A stretch of 64,000 bases of DNA from a bacterium (GTDB lineage: Bacteria > Electryoneota > Electryoneia > Electryoneales > Electryoneaceae), in NCBI GenBank assembly GCA_019912845.1, contig JAIOHU010000137.1:1-64000 (forward strand), in the 5' to 3' direction. The notes under the pieces were generated by a model. That model saw nothing but the letters and a program-made list of their open reading frames with translations, was not told where the DNA came from and did not search any database. This document shows positions 1,784 through 36,914 of this stretch, one piece after another; the first letter of the stretch is position 1; each line of letters begins with the position of its first letter. Position numbers and translations under genes: made by a program.

Positions 1784-3106
1784 CTAGAGGAAAACAACCT
1801 TTGCGGGAAAATCATCTGCAATTTCACGTACTGTGTTCCGGGTATCAAAAATCAGTTCACCATGGGTCAGTACGTCCTGATAGTTTACTTGCTTTTTATG
1901 GTTTGTGGTGATGATTATCAAATCCTGCGCTTTAAGAAATTCAGGGGTAAGTTCCTGTGAATAGATTATTCCCTGTTCCAGTTTTACCTTCGGACAGTAA
2001 GGATCATGGTAGCTAACCTCCGCACCACGTCTGGTCAACAGCTCAAATACATCCAATGCAGGGGATTCACGCAGATCATCTATGTCATTTTTGTAGGCAA
2101 CACCCAGGAGTAGAATCTTAGAGGTTTTTACCGGCTTTGCAACATCATTAAGCAGTTCTGCTGAACGTACCACAACCCATTCCGGCATCTTTGTGTTTAC
2201 TTCGGTCGCAAGATCAATGAATCGTGTTTTGTATTCCAATCCCCTCATTTTCCAAGCCAGATAACTGGGATCGATGGGGATACAATGACCACCTAAGCCT
2301 GGACCTGGATAAAAGGGCATAAACCCGAAGGGTTTTGTCGCTGCAGCATTGATGATATCCCAGATATCCACATCGAGGAGGTGGCATATAATCGCCAACT
2401 CGTTCACCAAACCGATGTTGATGGCACGAAAAGTGTTTTCATACAACTTCACCATTTCAGCGGCTGTAGTTGATTTGACCGGAACAACAGTATCCAGAAT
2501 CTGACTGTAAAACGACACCGCGACATTGGTGCAAGCTGGGGTTATTCCACCAACCACCTTTGGTGTGTTTTTCGGTCCAAACTGCTTGTTTCCCGGATCA
2601 ATTCGTTCGGGGCTGAAAGCGATAAAGATATCCTCGCCCGGAGTAAACCCAGCCTCTTTTACAACTGGTTCAAACAGTTCTTCTGTGGTTCCAGGATAGG
2701 TTGTACTCTCGAGCACAATCAGCATGCCTTCATGAATGTGTGGCTTGAGAGCATTTAGTGCACTATCCACAAAGCTCATATCTGGGTCGCCGGTTTTCAC
2801 CAGTGGGGTGGGGACTGTTATCAGCACAGCATCCACATTGGCTAGTTCTGCGTAATCAGTGGATCCACGAAGTTTGCCCTGTGCGACGAGCGTTTTCACC
2901 GCTTCGGTTGGTACATCCTGAATGTAGCTTTCACCCCGATTAATCTGATCAACTCGTGCAGAATCGATCTCGATTCCCACAACTTCATATCCACCTTCGG
3001 CAGCCAGCTGCGCCATGGGAAAGCCAACATATCCCATCCCGATAATACCGATTTTCGCTGTACGGTTGGTGAATGCTTGTTCTAATTGTTTTGTTAGATT
3101 TGACAC
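1784..3106 (-). CDS. Nucleotide-sugar 6-dehydrogenase (UDP-GlcNAc/UDP-ManNAc type)
   Basis: A 440-residue NAD-dependent nucleotide-sugar dehydrogenase, which oxidises the C6 hydroxyl of a UDP-hexose to a uronic acid for surface polysaccharide synthesis. The N-terminal Rossmann motif is GIIGMGYVGFPMAQ (about residues 20-33). The catalytic cysteine lies in GPGLGGHCIPIDP (about residues 268-280), and the C-terminal UDP-binding domain has LLLGVAYKNDIDDLRESPA. The N-terminal extension before the Rossmann fold and the overall pattern resemble WbpA/TviB-type UDP-N-acetylhexosamine dehydrogenases more than UDP-glucose dehydrogenase. The start is GTG. It stands alone here, but its product could feed the exopolysaccharide cluster at 27.4-33 kb (inference). 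Confidence 0.88.
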   Translation of the reverse strand: MSNLTKQLEQAFTNRTAKIGIIGMGYVGFPMAQLAAEGGYEVVGIEIDSARVDQINRGESYIQDVPTEAVKTLVAQGKLRGSTDYAELANVDAVLITVPTPLVKTGDPDMSFVDSALNALKPHIHEGMLIVLESTTYPGTTEELFEPVVKEAGFTPGEDIFIAFSPERIDPGNKQFGPKNTPKVVGGITPACTNVAVSFYSQILDTVVPVKSTTAAEMVKLYENTFRAINIGLVNELAIICHLLDVDIWDIINAAATKPFGFMPFYPGPGLGGHCIPIDPSYLAWKMRGLEYKTRFIDLATEVNTKMPEWVVVRSAELLNDVAKPVKTSKILLLGVAYKNDIDDLRESPALDVFELLTRRGAEVSYHDPYCPKVKLEQGIIYSQELTPEFLKAQDLIIITTNHKKQVNYQDVLTHGELIFDTRNTVREIADDFPAKVVFL

Positions 3107-3306
3107 GAATCTTAGCCCTTATATTCAAGTCTGATTGTAAAAAACAGGAATAACATCCTTGTTTATTGAGAGTAATAAATGCAAGGAAATGCTTTGCTTT
3201 GAATCTGGGAAAGCTAACGTGTACCTCCAGTAAATACAAGTGGTGAGCACCACTCATAAATGGAGAGAATTGCTTTGTAGTGGAGCTTGGCTGTGGTGGA
3301 GGGTGG

Positions 3307-3397
3307 CACGGGGATTGAACCCTATCACAATTATAATTTCGTTGAGTCTGGAAGCTGAACTATTAATAAGAGATCATTGAGTTGATCAATCCCCGTG
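3307..3397. repeat. 12-bp inverted repeat with tRNA-end-like arm
   Basis: Perfect arms CACGGGGATTGA at 3307-3318 and TCAATCCCCGTG at 3386-3397 are separated by 67 bases and could form one long hairpin in RNA from either strand. The left arm resembles a T-loop/acceptor end of a tRNA-like RNA on the minus strand. No complete RNA gene can be folded around it by eye. Confidence 0.5.
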
Positions 3398-3485
3398 AAC
3401 CTCTCTTGTTCGTAAGTTCAAATACCACTTGTTCCCGTACACTCGACAATACCCCCTCGATGCTCTACCTACGGTCGGGTTCTTC

Positions 3486-3517
3486 GATTCCAGCTAACAC
3501 AATGCTGGAATGACGCA
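3486..3517. repeat. Dispersed palindromic repeat, family A, copy 2
   Basis: The arms ATTCCAGC (3487-3494) and GCTGGAAT (3504-3511) are followed by GACGCAT. Compared with copy 1, both arms changed together (GATGCCAGC to GATTCCAGC, GCTGGCAT to GCTGGAAT), so base pairing is preserved. Confidence 0.7.
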
Positions 3518-3540
3518 TGGGATAAATCCACTTATTGAGT

Positions 3541-3594
3541 TATTAGACCGTGGACAAATCCAACGCCAACATTCATTGCATGAAAGACAGTCCA
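3541..3594. repeat. Dispersed repeat, family B, copy 1 (partial)
   Basis: TATTAGACCGTGGACAAATC and the following bases match the second half of the copies at 52912-53000 and 54466-54545. The arm CGTGGA...TCCAACG is a decayed version of the palindrome seen in copy 2. It ends immediately at the stop codon of the Omp85-family gene. The first palindrome of the family is missing here. Confidence 0.6.
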
Positions 3595-5319
3595 CTAGAA
3601 AACTGTGATCAACCTGGTATGCAGAACCGCCGCAGACCACCCCTCGTTCGCTGGCAGGGCAACTGATACATTCAGTTGATTGTTTCCCGCTTTAACCAAT
3701 GCTCCAAGACCATAGGAATATACCCATTCCGATCTTTTCGGTTTTTCCAGCCAGGCTGTATCAACTAATCCATAGAGACGACTATTTTTTCCGGTGAGGT
3801 ATCTTGCTTCAAGGTTTAGCCATGCAGATCGTGGAGCGGTTAAGGCATTCTCCTGGTAACCACGTATTGTTGTAATACCTCCCATGCGAACCCATTCAGA
3901 AAATGGGGGAGTGCCATTTTCTGTTCTCGTATCCATATAGTTTAGTCCGATCGAGGCAACCCAGGGATATGAGAATGATAGAATTTGCTGGAGTTGAATT
4001 TTATTTTTCGTCAAATTTTTCAGAAAAGCATGTTTTTCAGCATACAAACGTTCTGTTTTTACGCTGTACACTCCTCCCTCACGAGGATTTACTACGTTGT
4101 CACGTGTATCAACAATAACACCTGCCGATAAGCCGGTCATCGTGTATGACAAAGAATCCTGAGAGACGACGATTGTGTCGGCGTGCGAAAGCCGACGTGT
4201 TATTCCGGTTACTACTGTCCAGTTACTAACCGGAGAAAATCCCAGTTCACTTCCAAAGGTTTGAAGAACATATAGACTGTCAGCAAACTCCTGCTCGAAG
4301 AAGAGGTCTCCGGAGACATTCTGACGGAACAGATACGGCTCGCGATATCGCAGGGCAAACGATTGATATTTCGGGTTATCCCGTTGCCAGTGAATCTCAA
4401 AACGTCTCCCACCACCAAACAAATTACCAAGCACAGCATCCATGCTTCCCGCAATTCCATCTGCGCCATCTGCCTGGGGGGAGTATCCCAACCCTCCGCT
4501 GAACGAGCTTGTCGGTTGCTCGTTTACAGGAAATAGAACGCCAAATTGATCCTTTGCAGTCAAAAATAGTTGAGGAGACTCTACCTCCGAAAACCAACCA
4601 GTGCGAAGAAGATTACGTCTGGCAAGCTCAAGCTGTCGTGAGTTATAGGGTTCACTACGTTTTAATTTAGAAATACGAAAGGCGGTTTGAGGGCGAGTTC
4701 TTTTTAATCCTTTGAATCGAATGTCTTCGAGATAAACAAGCCTTCCAGGGCTAATAGTCATACCCGCTATTACACCCACATGCGTTGAATTAAAAACTGG
4801 TACCAATGGATGAGTTGATACTTCAGCAAAGGGATAACCCACCTCCTCCATATAAGCTACCACTCTTTGAACATCTGCATTCCATCTTAATGGCGAAAAG
4901 AATGAACCGGGCTTGGTTAGGATTACAGTTTCGAGTTTATCGCGAAATTGGTTGATCGATCCGTTCAGTATGATTGTATCTACTTTGGCAGGTAACCCTT
5001 CAGAAATATGGATAACGATGTCGAAATAAGTGGAGTCGGGTGGAAAGTCGAATTGGACACTGTCGATATCAACAAATGGAAAACCGAAATTTATGCCCAA
5101 ATTTACAATCGTTGAATCAAGTCTATCGAAAAGCTTTTCTGGCTCATAGATTTCTCCCACCTGTAACTTAATTCCATCCAGAACAGTTCTATCCGAAAGT
5201 TCTACATTGCCGCTGATATCAATTTTGTGCAATGGTAAAGGTGCTGACGTCAACAAACCGACAGCACCCAGGTGAATCAGCAGAATCAAAATTCCAGTGG
5301 TGGTGTTTTGTTTTTGCAT
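3595..5319 (-). CDS. Omp85/BamA-TamA-family outer membrane protein
   Basis: About 574 residues from the ATG at 5319 (a TTG at 5337 would add six). An N-terminal signal segment (GILILLIHLGAVGLLTSA) is followed by POTRA-like modules (HKIDISGNVELSDRTVLDGIKLQVGEIY; DTIILNGSINQF; VYLEDIRFKGLKRTR), then a bacterial surface-antigen beta-barrel from about residue 270. GGLGYSP, DTRDNVVNPREGGVYS and GGITTIRGYQE are typical strand and loop signatures. The chain ends in phenylalanine (RLITVF), the usual barrel insertion signal. It is shorter than BamA (around 800), so it may be TamA-like or a patatin/two-partner type Omp85 member with three or fewer POTRA domains. Role inferred: outer-membrane protein insertion or secretion. 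It stands alone, with a family B repeat directly downstream. Confidence 0.85.
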   Translation of the reverse strand: MQKQNTTTGILILLIHLGAVGLLTSAPLPLHKIDISGNVELSDRTVLDGIKLQVGEIYEPEKLFDRLDSTIVNLGINFGFPFVDIDSVQFDFPPDSTYFDIVIHISEGLPAKVDTIILNGSINQFRDKLETVILTKPGSFFSPLRWNADVQRVVAYMEEVGYPFAEVSTHPLVPVFNSTHVGVIAGMTISPGRLVYLEDIRFKGLKRTRPQTAFRISKLKRSEPYNSRQLELARRNLLRTGWFSEVESPQLFLTAKDQFGVLFPVNEQPTSSFSGGLGYSPQADGADGIAGSMDAVLGNLFGGGRRFEIHWQRDNPKYQSFALRYREPYLFRQNVSGDLFFEQEFADSLYVLQTFGSELGFSPVSNWTVVTGITRRLSHADTIVVSQDSLSYTMTGLSAGVIVDTRDNVVNPREGGVYSVKTERLYAEKHAFLKNLTKNKIQLQQILSFSYPWVASIGLNYMDTRTENGTPPFSEWVRMGGITTIRGYQENALTAPRSAWLNLEARYLTGKNSRLYGLVDTAWLEKPKRSEWVYSYGLGALVKAGNNQLNVSVALPANEGWSAAVLHTRLITVF

Positions 5320-27417: not shown

Positions 27418-27585
27418 TTATTCTTGTATAATACGCTCTTCATCGTGTGGATAATAAACATTATACGGTTTTTCTAATAATTGTGCAATTATTGTAGCCG
27501 CAAACGCAACAATAATTGCTGATATAAAAACAATTATCATTTGTTTTGTACTTCTTTTTATTTTTCGTTTCCTGTTTCTTGACAT
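27418..27585 (-). CDS. Small single-span membrane protein (55 aa)
   Basis: A short gene encoding 55 residues: a basic N-terminus (MSRNRKRKIKRSTK), one hydrophobic helix (MIIVFISAIIVAFAATIIA, about residues 16-34) and an acidic tail ending DEERIIQE. The predicted orientation is N-terminus in. Its ATG at 27585 is only three bases after the stop of the methyltransferase gene, which supports real, coupled translation, and it is the last gene of the exopolysaccharide cluster. Function unknown. It ends six bases from the convergent rsmG stop. Confidence 0.65.
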   Translation of the reverse strand: MSRNRKRKIKRSTKQMIIVFISAIIVAFAATIIAQLLEKPYNVYYPHDEERIIQE

Positions 27586-27588
27586 TTA

Positions 27589-28434
27589 CTATCCCGTACT
27601 TGCAATTCGTCTCTTTGCCCATGTTTCCAAGGTAGGGGAAAAGATATATCGATTGCCACTCATTTGCTCTACTTTTGATGAAAACAAACCGAACGACCTC
27701 TTTGTATATTCGACCCATTTACCTTTCTTTCCGACACCGTATGCATCCCCACTCGTAAGTGCTCCACCCATTATCTGGAATTCGAGGTTATTTTTGGCGA
27801 ACAGTTTTTTCATCGTTGCAGTTTCATAATTAAAAGGGTGAAATACTGCCGGGTTCTTAAAACCTGTTTGAGTGCCAGCAATTTTCCAAAACTCATCAAT
27901 CTTTCTTACAACCTTGTGGTTTCGTACCCTTAAAAAAAGCAAACCATCATCCAAAAGCAAATCTGCCGCCCGTTGTATCTCATCAAGTGGATTTTCAACC
28001 AGCATCAACACGTCCCAGTAGGTGATCAAATCAAATCTGCTACTTGTTTTTTTCTGCGTCGATAGAACCCCTGATTTGACGGAATGTCCTCTGCTGTTTG
28101 CTATCTCGACCAGTTGTTCTACCGGCTCAATTCCAAATGTTTCCCATCCACGATCTTTTGCTATATCTAAAAATCCTCCAACTCCGCATCCTATGTCCAA
28201 CACGCTGCCTGGTTTGGATAAGTATTTCTCTGCCTTTCGCAGAACAGCTTGATATAGTTCCTGCTTACTTTGGTTGATGGCATAGGTCGGGTTTACCGAT
28301 TCATAATATCCAGTTGAATCTTCGTGTGGTGGATCACGCCAGAGTAGGTTGCAAATTAAACACTTTCGATACAGAGATTCACCATGCTCTTCGATCTCAT
28401 TGGATTCTACATTGCAAATAGGACAAGTTTTCAC
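27589..28434 (-). CDS. SAM-dependent methyltransferase with N-terminal zinc-ribbon
   Basis: 281 residues from a GTG start. The N-terminus has a C-x2-C pair (CPICNVES) and a second pair (RKCLICNLLWRDPP), a treble-clef or ribbon element common in polysaccharide-cluster methyltransferases. The class I SAM domain follows (Methyltransf_23 type) with motif I VLDIGCGVGGFLDIAKDRGW, near residue 78, and DLITYWDVLMLVENP. It probably methylates a sugar nucleotide or lipid-linked glycan. It overlaps the upstream membrane protein gene by 4 bases. Confidence 0.82.
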   Translation of the reverse strand: MKTCPICNVESNEIEEHGESLYRKCLICNLLWRDPPHEDSTGYYESVNPTYAINQSKQELYQAVLRKAEKYLSKPGSVLDIGCGVGGFLDIAKDRGWETFGIEPVEQLVEIANSRGHSVKSGVLSTQKKTSSRFDLITYWDVLMLVENPLDEIQRAADLLLDDGLLFLRVRNHKVVRKIDEFWKIAGTQTGFKNPAVFHPFNYETATMKKLFAKNNLEFQIMGGALTSGDAYGVGKKGKWVEYTKRSFGLFSSKVEQMSGNRYIFSPTLETWAKRRIASTG

Positions 28435-29918
28435 AATTTACCCCCATACGAAGAGAATTCTGCTTTTTGTTGTTGTTTTATAAAACGCTCGATGGAGTTA
28501 ATGTCTTGGTCGATTTCCTCTTCCTCCAGAAAACCTGGGAGCACGATGACCATAGCCGTGAGAAACCAGAAGGGCTCCATCACACGGACGATAATAAAAG
28601 TATTCGCACCGACAGCATGTGTTAGTAACCCAAAAAAGCTGGCTATAAACCCAGCAACAATACCATAGTATTGTGGAAACCTTTTCTCATTAATTTTTTT
28701 CAAACTTTTCCTTGCATTCACAAAAACGCTTGCGAGTACCCAGGCAAACAGGCTGAATCCCACAACACCAGTTTCTACTAGAACACGGAAATATTGTGCA
28801 TCCTTAAAGCCTGCACCAGTAACTCCATAACCAAATATTGGACGTTTTGTCCATTGCTCCAGCGTACTTGTCCACGATTGAATTCGGAGAGAGGTAGAAG
28901 GATCCAGGCTTGTATCACCCAAATCAACAACATCGGTTCTAAGCGTGTTTTCATCAGAAAAAGTATATTCTACACGTTCGATTACCGCTTCAGGAATAAA
29001 AGCTGGTGAAGCGAGGACAGTAACAGCCAGCACTGCGATGATATATTTTCGTTTGGGTGAAAATGCGATCATGACCAGAATAGAAGGAAAGAATGAAATC
29101 CATGAAGAGCGTGACAGGGTGTAGGCGAAAGGAAGCATCATCAACAGTAAAAAAGCCCCTAAACCAACCATTGCATTGATTTTTTTTGTGCCTGTCATGA
29201 TTCCAATGACAATGAACATGATAATTATCAGATACCCGCCAAGTGTGTTAGCTTCACCCGCTTTCCCTTCAAATGGTGCGGAGACTCGTACCCCGGAAGG
29301 AATTTGAATAATTGCATAGACTGACACGATAAATGCGGTCACAAGCAACAGTGTAATATAACGATTAAATGTTTTTATGTTTCTAATATGCGAAGAAACC
29401 ATGAAGTAGATCATGAAATATTGAAAATATTTAACGTTATACAGAATTCCAACCAGTGGTTTGACGTCGTTGGTAAATATCCCGAGGATGGTGGAAAACA
29501 AGCTGGCGAGAATATAGGCGAAGATCGGTTTGTTCAGCGGGGTTTTGATAAAAATACCGATATCTTTATTCAGGGCTGTTTTTGCAAGCCAGGAAAGCGT
29601 AATGATGCCCAGCAAGACATCATCCACACGAATCACGACATCCCTTTGCGCTGCCATGCTGCCTTCGGCAGCACCACTACCAGATCCAAATTCAGGTGAC
29701 AACAACATGGAGAGAATCAGCATGGAAAGAGCAAAGTCGGTGTTCACGAAAGCGAAGAGAAAAATTACCACACCAGCAAGGAGGTAAATGGCGAGAGATT
29801 CGTTCGCGCCTACAAGCTGGCTGATCCCCAGGGCGGATATAATTATTACAAAAGCTGCCAGGACGGAGAAAACTTTAGAGTTAGAGTTAAAAAACGTATC
29901 AGAGAGAAAGTTTGCCAT
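28431..29918 (-). CDS. O-antigen ligase/Wzy-like polymerase, polytopic membrane protein
   Basis: About 495 residues from the ATG at 29918. A GTG four codons upstream overlapping the previous stop is possible. Ten or more hydrophobic helices are evident, with a large periplasmic loop in the second half. The pattern SLRIQSWTSTLEQWTKRPIFGYGVTGAGF (near residue 355) is the Wzy/O-antigen-ligase family signature that precedes the last helices. These enzymes polymerise or ligate lipid-linked sugar repeats at the periplasmic face. Its position between a Wzc-like protein and a methyltransferase supports the exopolysaccharide polymerase role. Ligase versus polymerase cannot be decided. Confidence 0.82.
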   Translation of the reverse strand: MANFLSDTFFNSNSKVFSVLAAFVIIISALGISQLVGANESLAIYLLAGVVIFLFAFVNTDFALSMLILSMLLSPEFGSGSGAAEGSMAAQRDVVIRVDDVLLGIITLSWLAKTALNKDIGIFIKTPLNKPIFAYILASLFSTILGIFTNDVKPLVGILYNVKYFQYFMIYFMVSSHIRNIKTFNRYITLLLVTAFIVSVYAIIQIPSGVRVSAPFEGKAGEANTLGGYLIIIMFIVIGIMTGTKKINAMVGLGAFLLLMMLPFAYTLSRSSWISFFPSILVMIAFSPKRKYIIAVLAVTVLASPAFIPEAVIERVEYTFSDENTLRTDVVDLGDTSLDPSTSLRIQSWTSTLEQWTKRPIFGYGVTGAGFKDAQYFRVLVETGVVGFSLFAWVLASVFVNARKSLKKINEKRFPQYYGIVAGFIASFFGLLTHAVGANTFIIVRVMEPFWFLTAMVIVLPGFLEEEEIDQDINSIERFIKQQQKAEFSSYGGKL

Positions 29919-29926
29919 CACCAACC

Positions 29927-32263
29927 TCACTTCTCTTTCTTACTGAACATGGAGGTTGTCTCCTTGATTCTCTCCCCGATTTTTCGGATAAAACCGTTCT
30001 TCTCTTCCGCTTTCATTGTGGTTTGTGTTTTTTGGTCTGGTCTGCCATAATAACGCCCATAATAGTAATGTGAGCCAGCATAACCAGCGATATCCGCCTT
30101 CAGGTCGTTCAGTACCACTCCAAGAACATTTGCACCTACAGACTCTATCTGCACTTTCGCACGTTTCAGGGCTGCACGTGGAACTTTACCGGTACGATAA
30201 ATCAACAGCGTTGCATCTGCACGATTTGACAGAATGGCAGCGTCTGTAACGGGTAGAATCGGAGGAACATCAAATAACACGATATCGAATTCTTGAGATG
30301 CTTCTTCCATAAATTGTTTCATTTTAGCGGATGCAAGCATTTCTGAAGGATTGGGCGGTACACCACCGCTAGTGATGATATGCAGGTTCTCCATACCGGG
30401 GGTCATTAAAATGGATTCCATGCCCATCTCGCCCATAATAATATCGGTAACGGTACGGATCGTTTCCTGCCATTTTTTTCTACCCAGTACGATATCTGTT
30501 ACCCCGGGTTCCTGTTCAAGTCCAAAAATTCGATACAGGGTGGGACGCCTCAGGTTGCATCCTACGAGCAATGTTCTGGTACCACTCTGAGCCAAAGTGA
30601 TCGCAAGATTAACAAGGGTGGTTGATTTACCTTCCTGCAAAGAAGCTGAAGTAGCTACCAAGGTTCGGATTTGGCGTGAAATAGACCTGAATTGAAGATT
30701 TGTTCGCAATGAACGGTATGCCTCTGCCACAGGGTCTTTGGGTGCAAAATGGGTAACCAGGCGTGCTGATGAAGCCAGGTTGGGATTGTTCTCCAGCATC
30801 GGATTCTGTTCGACCAATCGATCAGAAACCGCTTCAATGTCAATGTGGGGGATAACCCCCATAACGGGTACCTGTAAATACTCCTCAACATCCTCAATTG
30901 TCCCGATAGATGTATCAAAAGTTTCGAAAAGAAAGGCAAGGACAAGCCCCAGCATCAATCCGATGACGATACCAACGCTTATGGTTCGGAACATATTGAT
31001 ATTAATAGGAGAAGAGTTCAACATCGCAGGACGAACAACCATCACCTCATCTGCTTGATCTGCTTCACGTATCAACGCTTCCTGATGTTTCTCGGTAAGG
31101 AAAGCATATTGATTTTCGCGTAAACTTACTTCTCTAAGCAGTTGTGAATATAGGCGTTGCGTACGTGGAACACTATCCAAAATCGCACTGATATTATTGA
31201 TATATGCTGAAAGCGAATCCTTCTTTTGTTCCATCAGCGACAAATTGCCGCTGACTTCAGAGACCAATTCGCGGATCAAATCCTTAATTTGAGACTCAAG
31301 ATCTACGATCTTGGGATAAGTGGGGCGGTAATCTTTCAGTAATTCGCTTTTCTGAACCTCTAATGAAACCAATCGTTCATTTAACAAACCAAGTGGACCG
31401 GAACCTTCTTCTGAGCTGATCCAATCAATGTCATATTCTTGTGAAAGCTCTTCTTCACCCGAATAACTTATCGACCCATCCGCAAGGATAGTTGGATTTC
31501 TCAGCCCGCTCCCATTTGTTTTTGGCTGAATACGTTCCTGTAGTTGATCGCGCTGGAGCCGAAGTTCTTTTATACGTTCAGCTAAATTTCTCTTTTGTTG
31601 TTCAATGTTTATCAACTCTTCGATGCGAATTTTGATGTGATCATCAAGAACCGGGTAAGGGTTTTGCTCACGATAATTCTGCATCTGCTCTTCGGCGGCA
31701 TTCAATGCTGCCTTGGAAAAGCGTAACTGCTCCTCAATAAATTCCCTGGTTTCACGATCCTGTCGCGTTCTCTGTTCGAGGTGTTCCTCAGAAAAAACTT
31801 CGGCAAGGTTCTGGGAGATTTCCCGTGCTTCATAGGGATCATCTGAGGTGACATATATATCTATGATATTGGTTCTACCATTTCGTTCGGTAGAAACCTT
31901 GGAAATCATATTATTGATCAGGGCGGATAGCTTGGTATCCTGACGAATTTCTCGTGCTGACATAGCGTTGTCGATCAAACCCATCCGTTTGGCAACTTTT
32001 TCCATCACAGGAAAGCTTTGTATCAATTCCTGGGCGGTGGCAATGTTGTCCCAACGTGTATAGGTAAGCTTTTGCAGCAGCAAGCCTGCGACGGTATTCG
32101 TTTCTTCAATCTTTACAGAAGAATAAGTCTGATAGAGAGGGAGTCGCGAGCGACCGAAAAAATAGCTGAATACAGCCACCAGAAGCGTAGCAAATAACAC
32201 TACTTTCCAGCGTCTGCGGAAAATTCGTTGATAATCACGTAAATTCAGGTCGTATTGCGCCAT
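29927..32263 (-). CDS. Wzc-like polysaccharide co-polymerase with degenerate tyrosine-kinase domain
   Basis: 778 residues. An N-terminal Wzz domain (helix at about 18-37), long coiled coils (about 160-400), and a second membrane helix (SVGIVIGLMLGLVLAFLFE, about 428-446) precede a cytoplasmic BY-kinase-type P-loop domain. Walker A is present but altered (SASLQEGKSTTLVN, about 541-553). The Walker A' position reads LLVGCNLRRP where BY-kinases have DxDxR, so both aspartates are missing. Walker B-like VLFDVPPILPVTDA is kept. A C-terminal tyrosine cluster (SHYYYGRYYGRP, about 728-739) is present. It controls polymer length and export. Autokinase activity is doubtful. Confidence 0.85.
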   Translation of the reverse strand: MAQYDLNLRDYQRIFRRRWKVVLFATLLVAVFSYFFGRSRLPLYQTYSSVKIEETNTVAGLLLQKLTYTRWDNIATAQELIQSFPVMEKVAKRMGLIDNAMSAREIRQDTKLSALINNMISKVSTERNGRTNIIDIYVTSDDPYEAREISQNLAEVFSEEHLEQRTRQDRETREFIEEQLRFSKAALNAAEEQMQNYREQNPYPVLDDHIKIRIEELINIEQQKRNLAERIKELRLQRDQLQERIQPKTNGSGLRNPTILADGSISYSGEEELSQEYDIDWISSEEGSGPLGLLNERLVSLEVQKSELLKDYRPTYPKIVDLESQIKDLIRELVSEVSGNLSLMEQKKDSLSAYINNISAILDSVPRTQRLYSQLLREVSLRENQYAFLTEKHQEALIREADQADEVMVVRPAMLNSSPININMFRTISVGIVIGLMLGLVLAFLFETFDTSIGTIEDVEEYLQVPVMGVIPHIDIEAVSDRLVEQNPMLENNPNLASSARLVTHFAPKDPVAEAYRSLRTNLQFRSISRQIRTLVATSASLQEGKSTTLVNLAITLAQSGTRTLLVGCNLRRPTLYRIFGLEQEPGVTDIVLGRKKWQETIRTVTDIIMGEMGMESILMTPGMENLHIITSGGVPPNPSEMLASAKMKQFMEEASQEFDIVLFDVPPILPVTDAAILSNRADATLLIYRTGKVPRAALKRAKVQIESVGANVLGVVLNDLKADIAGYAGSHYYYGRYYGRPDQKTQTTMKAEEKNGFIRKIGERIKETTSMFSKKEK

Positions 32264-32285: not shown

Positions 32286-32990
32286 TTATATCACAACAAG
32301 TAAGATTACAATTTGCAGACCGATTGAAACAGCCTGTAGATATCTATTAACTGTCACAATCCATTTTTCCTCTTTAACCGGAACAAAGACTCTGTCACCA
32401 GGCTGTAACAGGATGTTTTGTGACGTATCGCCAAATTCGAAAAATGCGTTAAGATCAATAAGAATAAGGTCTCCATTTGATCTTAAAATAGTGATCTGTT
32501 CAAGATTTGCACCGGGTTGGACTCCACCATACCTCGCAATAAAATTGGCAAGCCGCATCCCCGGAGGTAAACTGTATTCACCCTGGGAAATAACAGATCC
32601 GAGAAGAGATACTTTCTGGCCTAGAAATTCCAGAACTTCAATTCGTAATACTGGATTTACCACATACTTCTGCATTTTATTTCGCAACAATCCCTCCGCC
32701 TGTTTCAGCGTGAGCCCGGTAACTGCAACCTCGCCAACCAACGGAAAATAAATTGTGCCATCATTCTGGATTACCAGGTCAACCTTTTTCCCCTCGTCAT
32801 CAAGGCTACGTTGACCAAAGTAGGTTATTCGGAGACGATCCCCCACCCCCAGCAGATATCCTTCAGGAACCTTCATCGCTGGTGCGCTCTCTTCAACAGG
32901 GTTCATCTGTGCGAAAGAATTCGTATAAATTCCCGCAGTAATGCATAAGATTAATATTAGTATCTGCCGTATCAACGTATTATCCTTCAC
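32286..32990 (-). CDS. Wza/KpsD-type polysaccharide export protein
   Basis: 234 residues from a GTG start. A signal-like N-terminus (ILILILCITAGIYTNSFAQ) lacks a lipobox. The Poly_export domain follows (YLLGVGDRLRITYFGQ, NDGTIYFPLVGEVAVTGLTL, about residues 45-125), then an SLBB-type domain (KVSLLGSVISQGEYSLPPGMRLANFIARYGG). A terminal hydrophobic helix (AVSIGLQIVILLVVI) could span the outer membrane as in Wza. It forms the exit channel together with the Wzc-like protein, whose gene follows 22 bases downstream. The start overlaps the response regulator gene by 11 bases. Confidence 0.87.
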   Translation of the reverse strand: MKDNTLIRQILILILCITAGIYTNSFAQMNPVEESAPAMKVPEGYLLGVGDRLRITYFGQRSLDDEGKKVDLVIQNDGTIYFPLVGEVAVTGLTLKQAEGLLRNKMQKYVVNPVLRIEVLEFLGQKVSLLGSVISQGEYSLPPGMRLANFIARYGGVQPGANLEQITILRSNGDLILIDLNAFFEFGDTSQNILLQPGDRVFVPVKEEKWIVTVNRYLQAVSIGLQIVILLVVI

Positions 32991-33354
32991 TCGAAATCAT
33001 ACGCGCAAGAACGCTTGTTTCAAGATAATCAAGATCAATTGGCTTTACGACAAAATCGGACGCCCCCATACTCGGAGCTTCAATGCCGATATTTCTGTCA
33101 TGAACGCCAGTCACCATGATAATACCAATATCCGCATTCAGTTTTTTTATTTTCTTGAGCAAATCCAGACCATTTGTTTCTGGGATCAAGATGTCCAGGA
33201 GAATTATGGTGGGAAAATTCTGAATAATCTTCTGCATCGCACGTTCAGGGGAAGTGGCATAATCGGCAGCATACCCTTTAGAGAGGAAGAAGTCGACAAG
33301 AATTTTACATACTTCGACTTCATCATCGATAACCAGGATGCTATTTTTTATCAT
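32980..33354 (-). CDS. Single-domain response regulator
   Basis: 124 residues from the ATG at 33354, chosen because GGAG lies six bases before it. A TTG 18 bases upstream has no such site. Only a receiver domain is present: acidic pair in LVIDDEVEV, phospho-acceptor Asp in IILLDILIPETNG (about residue 51), conserved Thr in IIMVTGVHD and Lys in FVVKPID. With no output domain it acts by protein contact. It lies between the HprK-like gene and the Wza-like gene, overlapping the latter by 11 bases, so it probably controls polysaccharide export. No histidine kinase is nearby. Confidence 0.9.
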   Translation of the reverse strand: MIKNSILVIDDEVEVCKILVDFFLSKGYAADYATSPERAMQKIIQNFPTIILLDILIPETNGLDLLKKIKKLNADIGIIMVTGVHDRNIGIEAPSMGASDFVVKPIDLDYLETSVLARMISSEG

Positions 33355-33390
33355 CCGATACTCCTGCCCCAAAATACCAACTTTGGATAT

Positions 33391-34305
33391 TCAGTTTGAA
33401 AGTGAACCTGTTGATTTGTAAACAGTCCTTGCGATGCTGGCGGCCGTATCAATATCTGCCTCCATTTGCACAGGAACGCGTTGCAGTAGCTCTGAGAGCA
33501 TTTGAAGAGTTGATGCGGCTATGTTATCAAAATAAGTCAGTGACAGCAATTTCATAATCAATTTTGCCTGTCGATTGTCTGTCATATCAATGGAATCATC
33601 CAGCAGGATAATTCGTTTCAGTGTTGCAGATTGTGACCAGGGAACATGATCTGGAGACAATCTTCTTTTCCCACTTGGCTCCAACTGATTCGCCTGCCAT
33701 TGCGGAAAGCGAGTCCATACGTCTTGAAATGCGCGTGGACCATCCCCCATTCCATAAATAATGTGTGAATCGCCATCTCTGCTGAGGAAGACCATATCAT
33801 CTGCGATCAGTTTTCCACCTTCTGCTACTAACTGAAGTGCGCAGGATGTTTTTCCCGACCCCGTTTCACCGGCGAACATAATGCCCATACCGTTCATCTC
33901 AACAGCGCTGGCATGGATTCCACGCATGCCTCTCGCAGCAAATGGGGGCAACAGTGCGGGCAGGATAATTTGGTCCATAATGTCGGTTGCCCGGTTCCAC
34001 GCCCACTGGGGCAAAAAAATACTCCCTGTTCCCGCTCTTGGATGAACTTCGATGAAGGTTCCCATTTGTGGGTGAGTCCAAACCAGCCGCGTCTTATCAC
34101 CGTACGCCCTGGTGTTTCCTCTTTGCAGACTGGTTTCTGTGTCGGGAGGAACCACCTTCAGTACCCCCACCCCAACATTAAAATGAATGTCAGGGTCAGT
34201 CTGGTTTTCACTGGCAATCGGAAATCCTGCCGGAAAGTTTATATTTGGAACCCCGGTTTCAATGGTAAATCCGACTCGTATATCACCAAACTTTCTAACG
34301 ATCAA
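33391..34305 (-). CDS. HprK-related kinase-like P-loop protein
   Basis: About 304 residues from a TTG start three bases after the pqqD-like stop. The second half has the HPr kinase/phosphorylase C-terminal fold signatures: Walker A GIMFAGETGSGKTSCALQL (about 132-150) and KLIADDMVFLSRDG, corresponding to the LxxDDxV motif of HprK. The N-terminal half (residues 1-120) is unrelated to HprK and holds GTGSIFLPQWAWNRATDIMDQ. Such HprK-like proteins occur with PqqD-like proteins and nucleotidyltransferases in PEP-CTERM-associated and lasso-peptide clusters. No HPr is nearby, so the substrate is unknown. Confidence 0.75.
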   Translation of the reverse strand: MIVRKFGDIRVGFTIETGVPNINFPAGFPIASENQTDPDIHFNVGVGVLKVVPPDTETSLQRGNTRAYGDKTRLVWTHPQMGTFIEVHPRAGTGSIFLPQWAWNRATDIMDQIILPALLPPFAARGMRGIHASAVEMNGMGIMFAGETGSGKTSCALQLVAEGGKLIADDMVFLSRDGDSHIIYGMGDGPRAFQDVWTRFPQWQANQLEPSGKRRLSPDHVPWSQSATLKRIILLDDSIDMTDNRQAKLIMKLLSLTYFDNIAASTLQMLSELLQRVPVQMEADIDTAASIARTVYKSTGSLSN

Positions 34306-34308
34306 CGT

Positions 34309-34578
34309 CTATGCCTTTGTAAATCCTGATTCTCTTAGCTTGACAAGAAACTTTTCTACCAGCGGTTCAATCTCTGTCCGCGATGGAGCATTCTTCATTC
34401 TAGTCAATTCTACTTCTATTTCATCCACATTCTGTGCATTGGAAAGCGCACGCCAGACCGTCGCACCGGTATGGTTCAATACTAGATATTCACCATTCTC
34501 TTTTAGAAGTAGTAAGCCTTCATCCACGTCCTGCTCAACAACACCATCTACCGGACGCGGGAGATCACTATCCCACAT
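34309..34578 (-). CDS. PqqD-family small protein
   Basis: 89 residues. The core DVDEGLLLLKENGEYLVLNHTGATVWRAL, then VDEIEVELT, matches the PqqD fold, which binds leader peptides or partner proteins in peptide-modifying systems. The start is the ATG at 34578, preceded by AGGGAAAATGTT, a 15-base string (with the ATG) also found before gyrB. It is followed by the HprK-like gene with three bases between. No radical SAM enzyme or obvious precursor peptide is adjacent, so the partner is open. Confidence 0.8.
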   Translation of the reverse strand: MWDSDLPRPVDGVVEQDVDEGLLLLKENGEYLVLNHTGATVWRALSNAQNVDEIEVELTRMKNAPSRTEIEPLVEKFLVKLRESGFTKA

Positions 34579-34770
34579 AACATTTTCCCTAAAGCTGAAT
34601 CAGATTCGTCGAATCGCTTATATTGTGAGAAATAAAATTTCTAAAAATATGAATATCTCATTCCAACATAAACAAGAAGTCCACACCGGACTGCCATTCT
34701 ATCTTCTTCTTGCTGCTTTACTATAATTTAGTAAGATACTTCAACTACAATGAAATACGCAACCAGAATA

Positions 34771-35919
34771 TCATGTAAAGTAAGACTTTTTCGGTTCCTG
34801 CCTATTTATTCCAAACCCTCTGCTCAACCGATTGAGAACATATTGAACCAATGATATTTCAGGATCATCAAACTCACGTAACAACGCTTTCGGAGGAAAT
34901 AAAAGCCGTTTGAGGTAACCGAACGCTTCACTGCGGCTGTCCTGTAGGTCAATTAATCCCGTGAGACGTCGCAGGTTGCGAGGAGAGACATCTTTACCTC
35001 GCATGATTAACGAGGGAGGTCTACGGTTTAATGTTCTTTGTATTTCGACTATTGACGTATCAACCGCTAAATTCTTCGGTCTAAATCTGAATATCTTTTG
35101 TGTCAGTGCGATGCTGGTGTTGACCGCTTTTGAAATTCTCCAGTCTTTTGTTCGTTTTCTGAATAACTCCTCGTCCAGTTCAATCTCGTTTGAGTTCAAC
35201 AAGCAATAAATATCATAGAACCAGGTTATCTTAAAGTAAGCATGGCGTACACTGTGAAGTGCAAGTATGGCAAGGTGATCTTCGACCGATGGCGCAGAGA
35301 CAGCGAGATTTTTATCAATGGATAAATATCGCTTACATTTTAACAAATCTGAAGAAGGAATCCAGAAAGGCTCAGTGCGATCAACTACTGCCCGATGTAA
35401 ATCCAGGGTAATTGGAATTTCTGGATGGCGTAACACAAGAGCAAAACCGTATTGTTCAGCAATTTTCTTTTCTCGTTTCCAGTGGACACTTTTCTGAAGC
35501 GTCCAGCCATTGTCGCAAAAAACTTCAACAACATCATCAAACTGATCAATCTGAACCAAAATATCCAAGTCACCTGGATGACGATTTTGAGGATTTGGAT
35601 GGTAGAATGCTGCGAGCAACCCTTTGAAATAGATGTAATTATATCCTGATAGTAGTGCGATAGTGTCCTTCAAGGCTGTTTTAGCCAGACGGTTCCTGGC
35701 GATTGCCTGATGTTTTGCGATCTTTAATTTATCAATTTCTCCCTGGTTCAATAGTTCCTGCCATCCATAAATTTCCACTACGGTTTCATACGCCCTGGCT
35801 GAAAGCTCGTTATGGTTTAAGAATGGAATCAGGTCATGCGGAATGGAGGTAATTTTTCCTGGGGGTACTTTGGTCAGCAGTTTAACAACAACATCTAAAT
35901 AAAGACGAGGATCGACCAT
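34771..35919 (-). CDS. NTP_transf_5-like nucleotidyltransferase family protein
   Basis: About 382 residues from the ATG at 35919, overlapping the stop of the peptidase gene as TAATG. A TTG ten codons earlier would give 392. The catalytic region reads YIYFKGLLAAFYHPNPQNRHPGDLDILV (about residues 100-127), the K-G then GDLDILV pattern of the uncharacterised nucleotidyltransferase family PF14907. Later EDHLAILALHSVRHAYFKITWFYDI is also typical. The family occurs in lasso-peptide-like and exosortase-associated clusters, where it is proposed to modify a peptide or glycan. The substrate is unknown. Confidence 0.75.
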   Translation of the reverse strand: MVDPRLYLDVVVKLLTKVPPGKITSIPHDLIPFLNHNELSARAYETVVEIYGWQELLNQGEIDKLKIAKHQAIARNRLAKTALKDTIALLSGYNYIYFKGLLAAFYHPNPQNRHPGDLDILVQIDQFDDVVEVFCDNGWTLQKSVHWKREKKIAEQYGFALVLRHPEIPITLDLHRAVVDRTEPFWIPSSDLLKCKRYLSIDKNLAVSAPSVEDHLAILALHSVRHAYFKITWFYDIYCLLNSNEIELDEELFRKRTKDWRISKAVNTSIALTQKIFRFRPKNLAVDTSIVEIQRTLNRRPPSLIMRGKDVSPRNLRRLTGLIDLQDSRSEAFGYLKRLLFPPKALLREFDDPEISLVQYVLNRLSRGFGINRQEPKKSYFT

Positions 35920-36416
35920 TAGATTCTGCTTTTCAGGGCTTCCATCCAATTTCTTATCCGCCAGAGTAATGGAATTTCCATTGGGTGAATAATTCCAGAT
36001 CGTTTCACGTGTGTGATCATACCGATCAAATGTTCGCGGCTAAAGGGATGAACGATTCTCGAATGATCACCACTTTCAAAAAGAAATTTATCACCGATTC
36101 CCACCAGTCGATGGACAACGGTGTTTTGATTTCCCGGATTTAAACGAAACACCAGCATACCGCATTGCAGTAGCTGGTGTTCAACACTTTTCAGAGGTAC
36201 TACCCGGACAAAGTCCCCGTCAACCAATGTGGGACGCATTGACCCCCCTCTCACTTGTATCCAGAAGGGTGTCTCAAGTTTTTTCAGGTGCTTCAGGCCG
36301 TTTGGCTCAGGGACCCCAAGGATCGGGTTCGTCACTGAAGAGCCGTGCTTCAACTTTTCCTGTTTCAAGAATCTCGGGATCTTCCCAAACTTGTTCTTGC
36401 GAATGGTGCTCTTCAT
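35919..36416 (-). CDS. S24/S26-family peptidase (signal-peptidase-like, no membrane anchor)
   Basis: 165 residues. The serine motif is QVRGGSMRPTLVDGDFVRVVP (catalytic Ser about residue 61), and the later VVHRLVGIG segment (about 100-108) carries His at the place of the general base in archaeal/ER-type signal peptidases. SGDHS follows. No transmembrane helix is seen at the N-terminus, unlike normal signal peptidase I, so it could be cytosolic and process a peptide inside the cell. It is the first gene of the cassette and overlaps the nucleotidyltransferase gene. Confidence 0.75.
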   Translation of the reverse strand: MKSTIRKNKFGKIPRFLKQEKLKHGSSVTNPILGVPEPNGLKHLKKLETPFWIQVRGGSMRPTLVDGDFVRVVPLKSVEHQLLQCGMLVFRLNPGNQNTVVHRLVGIGDKFLFESGDHSRIVHPFSREHLIGMITHVKRSGIIHPMEIPLLWRIRNWMEALKSRI

Positions 36417-36914
36417 CTTTTCGTGATTCCATCATCCACCTGCTTGATTAAAAGATCATTTAGCGATTAATTCCTGACGTTATAAAAGTGATTCAAAGAG
36501 GCTCTCCTGTCAAGACTCCAGGGACAATGAAAAAAATCCAATTACTCATAGGAGAAAAATAAAAATTATAGATTCAAGTCTCACGAAAGACTCTACTCAC
36601 CTCAAAAATCGCTCACTCAACAATTACTCAAAGCACTACAAAGAGAGACAACTATTCAACGCCCCAAAGGGGGCTGTAAATTTTCTTCAAGAAACACTTT
36701 AACTAATTTGTTCAAAATAGAAAAGACTGTTCCTTGCCAAACGTGGGGAGAAATTCAAGATTCTCAGTGCAGAACTTCAGTATCTAGAAGTGTCTGGTTG
36801 TGCCGAACTTTACTATTTTATAACGTCTTCTGAAGACTTGGCAAACATAGGAATTCAAAGCTTAACAAACAACTCTTCCTACCAAATCTCCAAAGTTATT
36901 TTCTTGTGATCCAT
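36417..36914. other. Gene-free stretch between gyrB and the peptidase gene
   Basis: No gene is supported on either strand. It must hold the promoter of the leftward cassette, but the best -35 (TTGACA on the minus strand) has its -10 at an unfavourable spacing. It contains a perfect 12-base inverted repeat, GACGTTATAAAA (36476-36487) and TTTTATAACGTC (36816-36827), and a short GC hairpin near 36660 without a T tail. Confidence 0.5.
36476..36827. repeat. 12-bp inverted repeat in the gyrB-peptidase gap
   Basis: Arms GACGTTATAAAA (36476-36487) and TTTTATAACGTC (36816-36827) are perfectly complementary and 328 bases apart. They could be paired regulator sites or chance in AT-rich DNA. Confidence 0.45.

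Follow-up and report, generated by a model that had tools for sequence, protein, structure and literature searches.

What substrate does a cassette of four enzyme and binding-protein genes serve when it stands directly ahead of a polysaccharide exporter? The cassette lies in a 64,000-nucleotide stretch (the window) of contig C50 in a 4.6 Mb assembly (G000) from Electryoneota, an uncultured phylum, and encodes an S26-like protease, a PF14907 nucleotidyltransferase (NT), a PqqD-like protein and an HprK-like protein. A first-pass annotation of the window had proposed that these enzymes modify a peptide or glycan tied to the polymer; it missed both the precursor itself and the recurrence of the module in other neighbourhoods (with a precursor and ABC exporter, with radical SAM enzymes, and in SynChlorMet cassettes). 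We find that a short open reading frame (ORF) at 36307-36435 is almost certainly a precursor gene encoding the cassette substrate. The cassette is very likely a peptide maturation system, best described as maturing a ribosomally synthesized and post-translationally modified peptide (RiPP) with tailoring parts already known, a leader peptidase of another kind and a genomic setting that was not expected. The whole is likely to represent a RiPP-like maturation operon coupled to exopolysaccharide (EPS) export. The precursor gene and the four cassette genes, which are adjacent in the ORF listing, are as follows:

36307..36435, minus strand: precursor peptide, 42 aa, MMESRKDEEHHSQEQVWEDPEILETGKVEARLFSDEPDPWGP; leader motif WEDPEI, invariant core FSDEPDPWG
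35919..36335, minus strand: soluble S26-like protease, proposed leader peptidase; probable start GTG 36335, called ORF 35919-36416
34771..35919, minus strand: PF14907 nucleotidyltransferase; proposed decoration of the phosphorylated peptide, by analogy with PsmN
34309..34578, minus strand: PqqD-fold RiPP recognition element (RRE), leader-binding protein; PF05402, predicted fold
33391..34305, minus strand: putative HprK-like peptide kinase; H131, K152, D169 and D170 form the His-Lys-Asp-Asp set of lasso kinases

The precursor frame lies mostly within the called S26 ORF, overlapping its 5' end out of frame, with AGGTGG just upstream of an ATGATG start. In the flanking gaps first suggested for a precursor search (34579-34770 and 36417-36914), no short ORF wholly inside either interval is conserved; of the precursor gene, 19 bases fall within the upstream gap. 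As called, the S26 ORF is too long: some 37 codons at its start overlap the precursor gene in another frame, and because of this overlap its true start is probably GTG 36335, which still overlaps the precursor-gene end. The precursor recurs upstream of S26-NT in four genera (window, MMESRKDEEHHSQEQVWEDPEILETGKVEARLFSDEPDPWGP; G001, MEKDPAQHPIDSNDEERYAPPAVVEKGRIEAKLFSDEPDPWGP; G003, ..LDDQEKKQLPQSEEEKSWEPPKILEQGRIEALLFSDEPDPWGP; G004, MEERQAAEEQSNSVIETWEPPEIIERGVIEARLFSDEPDPWGGP). Over its last 11 codons, comparison of all pairs among these genera yields 37 codon differences in the precursor frame, every one of them synonymous, whereas the same stretch read in the S26 frame gives 32, all amino-acid-changing and none synonymous; these are pairwise counts rather than independent events, but the two frames contrast completely. 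Six of 386 genomes match an exact degenerate pattern for the FSDEPDPW core, each a single time; all six are Electryoneota with the NT family, and the reversed control matches none. They include two further genomes, G015 and G010, that encode ..EYIPPRIVEKRKLEVELFSDEPDPWGCGPW and ..KYEPPKILEKKELKIELFSDEPDPWGPCGP. A precursor profile of 12 sequences, exporter-type locus precursors included, finds matches at E<=1e-3 in 12 of the 14 phylum genomes with PF14907 and in none of the 25 without it (Fisher 2e-8, a value that ignores species relatedness). The leader motif [YW]xxPx[ILV] is conserved and resembles that bound by lasso RREs; a search with YxxPx[LIVMF] does not catch the window precursor, which has W for Y and overlaps S26. 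A short precursor gene with a conserved leader motif thus stands at 36307-36435 beside leader-binding and modifying enzymes, the arrangement by which a RiPP locus is recognized.

The enzyme assignments made at first pass largely hold, and neither of the outcomes named there as refuting the reading occurred. The genes are as tightly coupled as described (as called, a 31-base overlap of S26 and NT, a 192-base gap from NT to PqqD and a 3-base gap from PqqD to HprK), and three of the proteins exceed their Pfam cut-offs: PqqD (PF05402, 35.5 bits against 23.4), the HprK-like protein (Hpr_kinase_C PF07475, 44 against 33.3, covering profile positions 9-61 of 171 only) and NT (NTP_transf_5 PF14907, 106.2 against 31.2). 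None of the four reaches an NCBIfam cut-off. Profile searches of the PDB match PqqD to the lasso RRE TbiB1 (3.5e-14), and its model (pLDDT, the predicted local distance difference test score, 91) superposes on the TbiB1/TfuB1 leader complexes at 1.8-1.9 Å, which places it in the RRE superfamily. The HprK profile matches HPr kinases, HprK/P also provides the top fold matches of the model, and an HprK-type fold is predicted; the NT profile found no solved structure. The catalytic residues of the putative kinase are all present, with the first Asp replaced by Glu in G001, and NT retains an invariant DxD (D127/D129) and D183, numbered from an ORF start at 35949; ATG 35919 is a more likely start than TTG 35949. 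For the protease, described at first as S24-S26, the soluble signal-peptidase-like character stands and the S24 (Ser/Lys) part does not. Its best PDB match is SEC11A (E 2.8e-11), and ten aligned homologues have invariant Ser59 and His102 and a conserved Asp117 in a GD box (numbering of the called ORF 35919-36416), so it is a Ser/His, SEC11-like S26 type.

The cassette sits in a conserved operon running from gyrB to gidB and on into a response regulator (RR), Wza, Wzc and Wzy, as the following genes show:

32980..33372, minus strand: single-domain RR, in most copies retained at the junction of cassette and exporter genes
32286..32990, minus strand: Wza-like polysaccharide export protein (Poly_export and SLBB)
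29927..32263, minus strand: Wzc-like chain-length determinant / tyrosine autokinase, by sequence
28431..29930, minus strand: Wzy / O-antigen-ligase-like membrane protein
27589..28434, minus strand: S-adenosylmethionine (SAM)-dependent methyltransferase-like protein, in the same conserved place in G001 and G004
27418..27585, minus strand: 55-aa protein with one transmembrane (TM) segment and a YYPHDEER-like conserved tail, the last operon gene in four genomes

As called, an 18-base gap separates HprK from the RR gene, and RR and Wza overlap by 11. The passage from cassette into RR and Wza/Wzc-like genes seen at first pass is kept in G003, which has a contiguous gyrB-precursor-S26-NT-PqqD-HprK-RR-Wza-Wzc-Wzy. 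G004 preserves gyrB-precursor-S26-NT-PqqD-HprK up to a contig end after HprK, and a second contig carries Wzc-Wzy-methyltransferase-one-TM protein beside gidB; both contigs end inside the operon. G010 belongs to another family; there one contig (L006) stops after S26-NT-PqqD-HprK while a second (L267) opens with RR-Wza-Wzc-Wzy, and continuity of the two is plausible. The closest orthologues of the Wzc-like protein come from genomes with the precursor.

A conserved precursor linked to S26-NT, PqqD-HprK and RR-Wza-Wzc-Wzy, together with intact catalytic residues and a predicted RRE fold, suggests a pathway modelled on lasso peptides. There, B1 proteins are leader-binding RREs (PMC8498205), a YxxPxL leader motif is conserved among the precursors from clusters that have a kinase (PMC10368454), HprK-like kinases (PadeK/ThcoK) phosphorylate the precursor's C-terminal Ser (PMC9266682), and PsmN-dependent hexoses are attached to the phosphate on that Ser (PMC8498205). 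By analogy, PqqD would bind the precursor leader through [YW]xxPx[ILV]; the HprK-like enzyme would phosphorylate the one Ser that the invariant core FSDEPDPWG contains; NT would add a sugar- or nucleotide-derived group to the Ser phosphate; and the S26-like protease would cut off the leader in the cytoplasm, either at the A-x-[LG]-[FYW]-S step common to aligned precursors or immediately ahead of it. The resulting phospho(glyco)peptide could then work with, be exported with or signal to the Wza/Wzc polysaccharide machinery. Phosphorylation, decoration and leader removal, taken jointly, are a tentative proposal that we rate slightly below an even chance, and a functional tie of peptide to polymer is evenly balanced. 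With the substrate named, a four-gene puzzle becomes a testable pathway.

Several observations weigh against the predicted RiPP operon coupled to EPS export. With Pro as its last residue, the window precursor falls outside the C-terminal-Ser rule of lasso kinases; because the window-type core lacks such a Ser, the internal phosphorylation site is assumed, a guess from conservation. Hexose transfer with PsmN may itself need a host glycosyltransferase, its chemistry being unsettled (review PMC9266682). The protease matches of Pfam fall below cut-off (PF10502, S26, 20.7 against 22.9; S24, 18.9 against 23.3). Nor is the cassette strictly tied to EPS genes: relatives of the precursor stand beside secreted type IX cargo, and the genes, linked in G003 and G004, are split in two places in G001, where PqqD-HprK-Wza-Wzc-Wzy-methyltransferase-one-TM protein adjoins dnaA and a different contig carries S26-NT.

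The last two points leave room for a peptide that is matured by the cassette and acts elsewhere, for example with type IX cargo, its place in the EPS operon reflecting a shared position or promoter only. A type IX sorting-tail protein adjoins 13 of 17 precursor relatives outside the gyrB operon, against a baseline of 5.4% of ORFs in comparison loci (tails called by a simple regular expression; binomial 3e-10, with a small, non-random baseline), PF18962 confirms the Por-secretion-tail in two of those neighbours, and the S26-NT half in G001 is outside the EPS operon. Set against this, the window-type copies in the gyrB operon are without a type IX neighbour, and the Wza/Wzc association recurs across families and gene orders: in f1, in f2 (L126, L131), probably in f5 (L006 and L267, across a contig break), and outside the phylum (L186, L192, L204, L213), with the single-domain RR kept in f1 (G000, G003), f2 and f5. 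We regard action elsewhere as possible, on the unlikely side. Type IX cargo can bear a C-terminal linking sugar (PMC7468200), so a peptide-based link for such cargo is conceivable. That a short linear phosphoglycopeptide (FSDEPDPWG...) would represent a new RiPP class and serve surface polymers as a molecular linker, a primer or a signal for export, with Wza/Wzc as neighbours in some loci and type IX cargo in others and hence as a phosphopeptide anchor common to polysaccharide and secreted proteins, is quite a long shot. As a separate observation, the orphan precursor-family genes L249, L250, L251, L252, L253, L254, L227 and L228 mostly lie directly beside large secreted type IX-tail proteins.

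Other explanations dispense with the peptide or treat the cassette as a relic. HprK homologues act on the folded protein HPr, and the RR and Wzc neighbours could offer similar targets; the enzymes acting on protein or glycan itself, with the small ORF incidental, is nevertheless highly improbable given a PqqD-fold leader binder, a precursor with a matching leader motif and purely synonymous core substitutions, and analogous precursors inside sister loci. Of the two substrates first envisaged, the peptide is thereby favoured, through the precursor gene and independent EPS-linked versions of the cassette, and the glycan becomes the weaker reading. An ordinary HPr kinase for carbon control, despite the PF07475 and HprK/P fold matches, can practically be dismissed: of the 171 positions in the PF07475 profile the match spans just 53, the protein reaches 47.5 of the 240 that the equivalog TIGR00679 requires, and a canonical 336-aa HprK is encoded on G000:C82 (L136 8669-9679) beside phosphotransferase system (PTS) EIIA/EIIB-like genes, as one is in nearly every relative. 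A lasso or SynChlorMet cluster in decay, with the cyclase or radical SAM enzymes gone, would account for the PqqD, kinase and NT parts in common, and true SynChlorMet cassettes with S26 and NT do exist in the phylum (L018). All window-type copies, however, lack cyclase and radical SAM, and yet their catalytic residues are intact and the core invariant; the set is therefore maintained rather than decaying, and we consider a degenerate cluster improbable.

None of the established systems, be it lasso, SynChlorMet, HPr-kinase or exosortase, describes the one in the window. With lasso clusters (paeninodin, pseudomycoidin and bsf of Bradymonas) it shares a PqqD-fold RRE, a YxxPxL-type leader, an HprK-like kinase and an annotated nucleotidyltransferase; it differs in having an S26 protease instead of the Asn-synthetase-like cyclase and transglutaminase-like B2 peptidase, in a core without C-terminal Ser and in an operon that carries EPS export genes. 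The absence of an Asn-synthetase-like enzyme and exosortase from the cassette, reported at first pass, is borne out: genome copies of the Asn-synthetase-like C protein are on other contigs, and exosortase PF09721 occurs in 0 of 39 phylum genomes. The best genome match to the lasso B2 peptidase PF13471 scores 15.8 of 26 bits. SynChlorMet cassettes (ScmC-ScmF) likewise contain an HprK-like protein (ScmC) and a PqqD-like one (ScmD), followed in this phylum by S26 and NT; they have two radical SAM enzymes, whereas the window operon has none, and the window proteins score only 19.7 of 125 (ScmC) and 16.8 of 100 (ScmD). HPr-rel-A / XrtA (PEP-CTERM) EPS loci place an HprK-like kinase and a PqqD relative near Wza/Wzc-like genes; here HprK_rel_A reaches 23.4 of 200 bits. 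The nickel superoxide dismutase protease is also short, soluble and signal-peptidase-like, with proposed cytoplasmic leader cutting; its substrate differs, and TIGR02754 gives 28.1 of 63.25 bits. Our literature search found no paper joining PqqD, HPr kinase, radical SAM and signal peptidase, a weak negative with subscription papers mostly outside the search.

Beyond the window, most PF14907 genes of the phylum lie near a PqqD gene. Loci L128 and L130 combine precursor, PqqD, HprK, S26, ABC and NT in varying order (L123 and L129 are alike, with no precursor identified). L126 and L131 are EPS-linked (NT-HprK-PqqD-rSAM-S26-RR-Wza-Wzc, where rSAM is radical SAM), and a relative of the XrtA-associated ATPase stands ahead of this gene set; with L186 and L204, they provide EPS-linked versions with precursors in other families or genomes. 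Around 56 PF14907 loci outside the phylum, home-made profiles (E<1e-5) detect PqqD at 20, HprK-like at 24, S26 at 10 and Wza or Wzc at 7 within the fetched flanks. Also outside the phylum, a locus in a complete genome (L213; G099:C1, 8858-16482) reads S26-PqqD-NT-ABC-HprK-Wza-Wzc, and a motif search there found no precursor. These arrangements suggest that PqqD, HprK-like and PF14907 enzymes, so far studied in lasso peptides, are parts of a broader module for decorating peptides, which has a signal-peptidase-like protease of its own and is repeatedly placed beside polysaccharide export.

YxxPx[LIVMF] peptides are found in many sister loci. In single-radical-SAM loci, 10 of 12 end in Ser by reading (L126, L131, L132, L164, L171, L172, L186, L187, L204 and L209; L172 has two radical SAM genes and the same peptide type), both exceptions being in L170, which is without S26. 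The chance of nine independent Ser ends at a Ser frequency of 0.07 is 4e-11, a figure that omits the L170 exceptions and the non-Ser classes. These Ser ends correspond to the residue that lasso HprK-like kinases phosphorylate (PMC9266682) and that receives the PsmN-dependent hexoses (PMC8498205). As a general rule C-terminal Ser was rejected, failing for L170, SynChlorMet, L176, L185, exporter-type precursors and the window type. The L126 precursor too overlaps the S26 5' end out of frame, so that precursor genes can hide in over-extended protease 5' ends in two independent cases, the window and L126.

Further observations concern individual loci. The EPS-linked radical SAM/HprK-like/PqqD/S26/NT sets with an XrtA-type ATPase relative span L126 6029-12863, L131 6027-17967, L186 14346-19003 and L204 1816-9060, and their precursors contain Cys and a C-terminal Ser. 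L018 is a SynChlorMet cassette with S26 and NT attached, all four models scoring above cut-off (ScmC 271.9, ScmD 136.6, ScmE 566.3 and ScmF 573.9 bits); L018 (9067-14790) and L017, both extended by S26/NT, hold candidate precursors ..IEYEKPELHELNTDRGEGFCGVG.. and ..MEYEKPELKELDTGHGQQCMNG.. S26-NT fusions occur in G005 and G006 (ORFs L021 9620-11245 and L020 10204-11847, Pfam/NCBIfam domains checked), and a fused S26+NT ORF was also scored in L171 and L204, the domain check being limited to L020 and L021.

Within the window operon, the 55-aa one-TM protein (27418-27585) was considered as a cassette substrate and rejected; it is conserved, lacks the leader motif and has no Pfam or PADLOC match, and we treat it as an operon member only. 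A defence-system reading was dropped, there being no PADLOC match. Promoter-like sites were not used, since the operon shows no excess of them over shuffled sequence. Elsewhere in the same assembly, L034 (G000:C196) has a second PqqD gene (1336-1593), then an ORF for a pyridoxal phosphate (PLP) decarboxylase (2560-4005) with an N-terminal leader-like stretch, MEKKPYVKPTIVRHASGGILNKFG. The same start recurs in L135 (G002:C94, 6583-7959), and the enzyme may carry its own RiPP-type leader.

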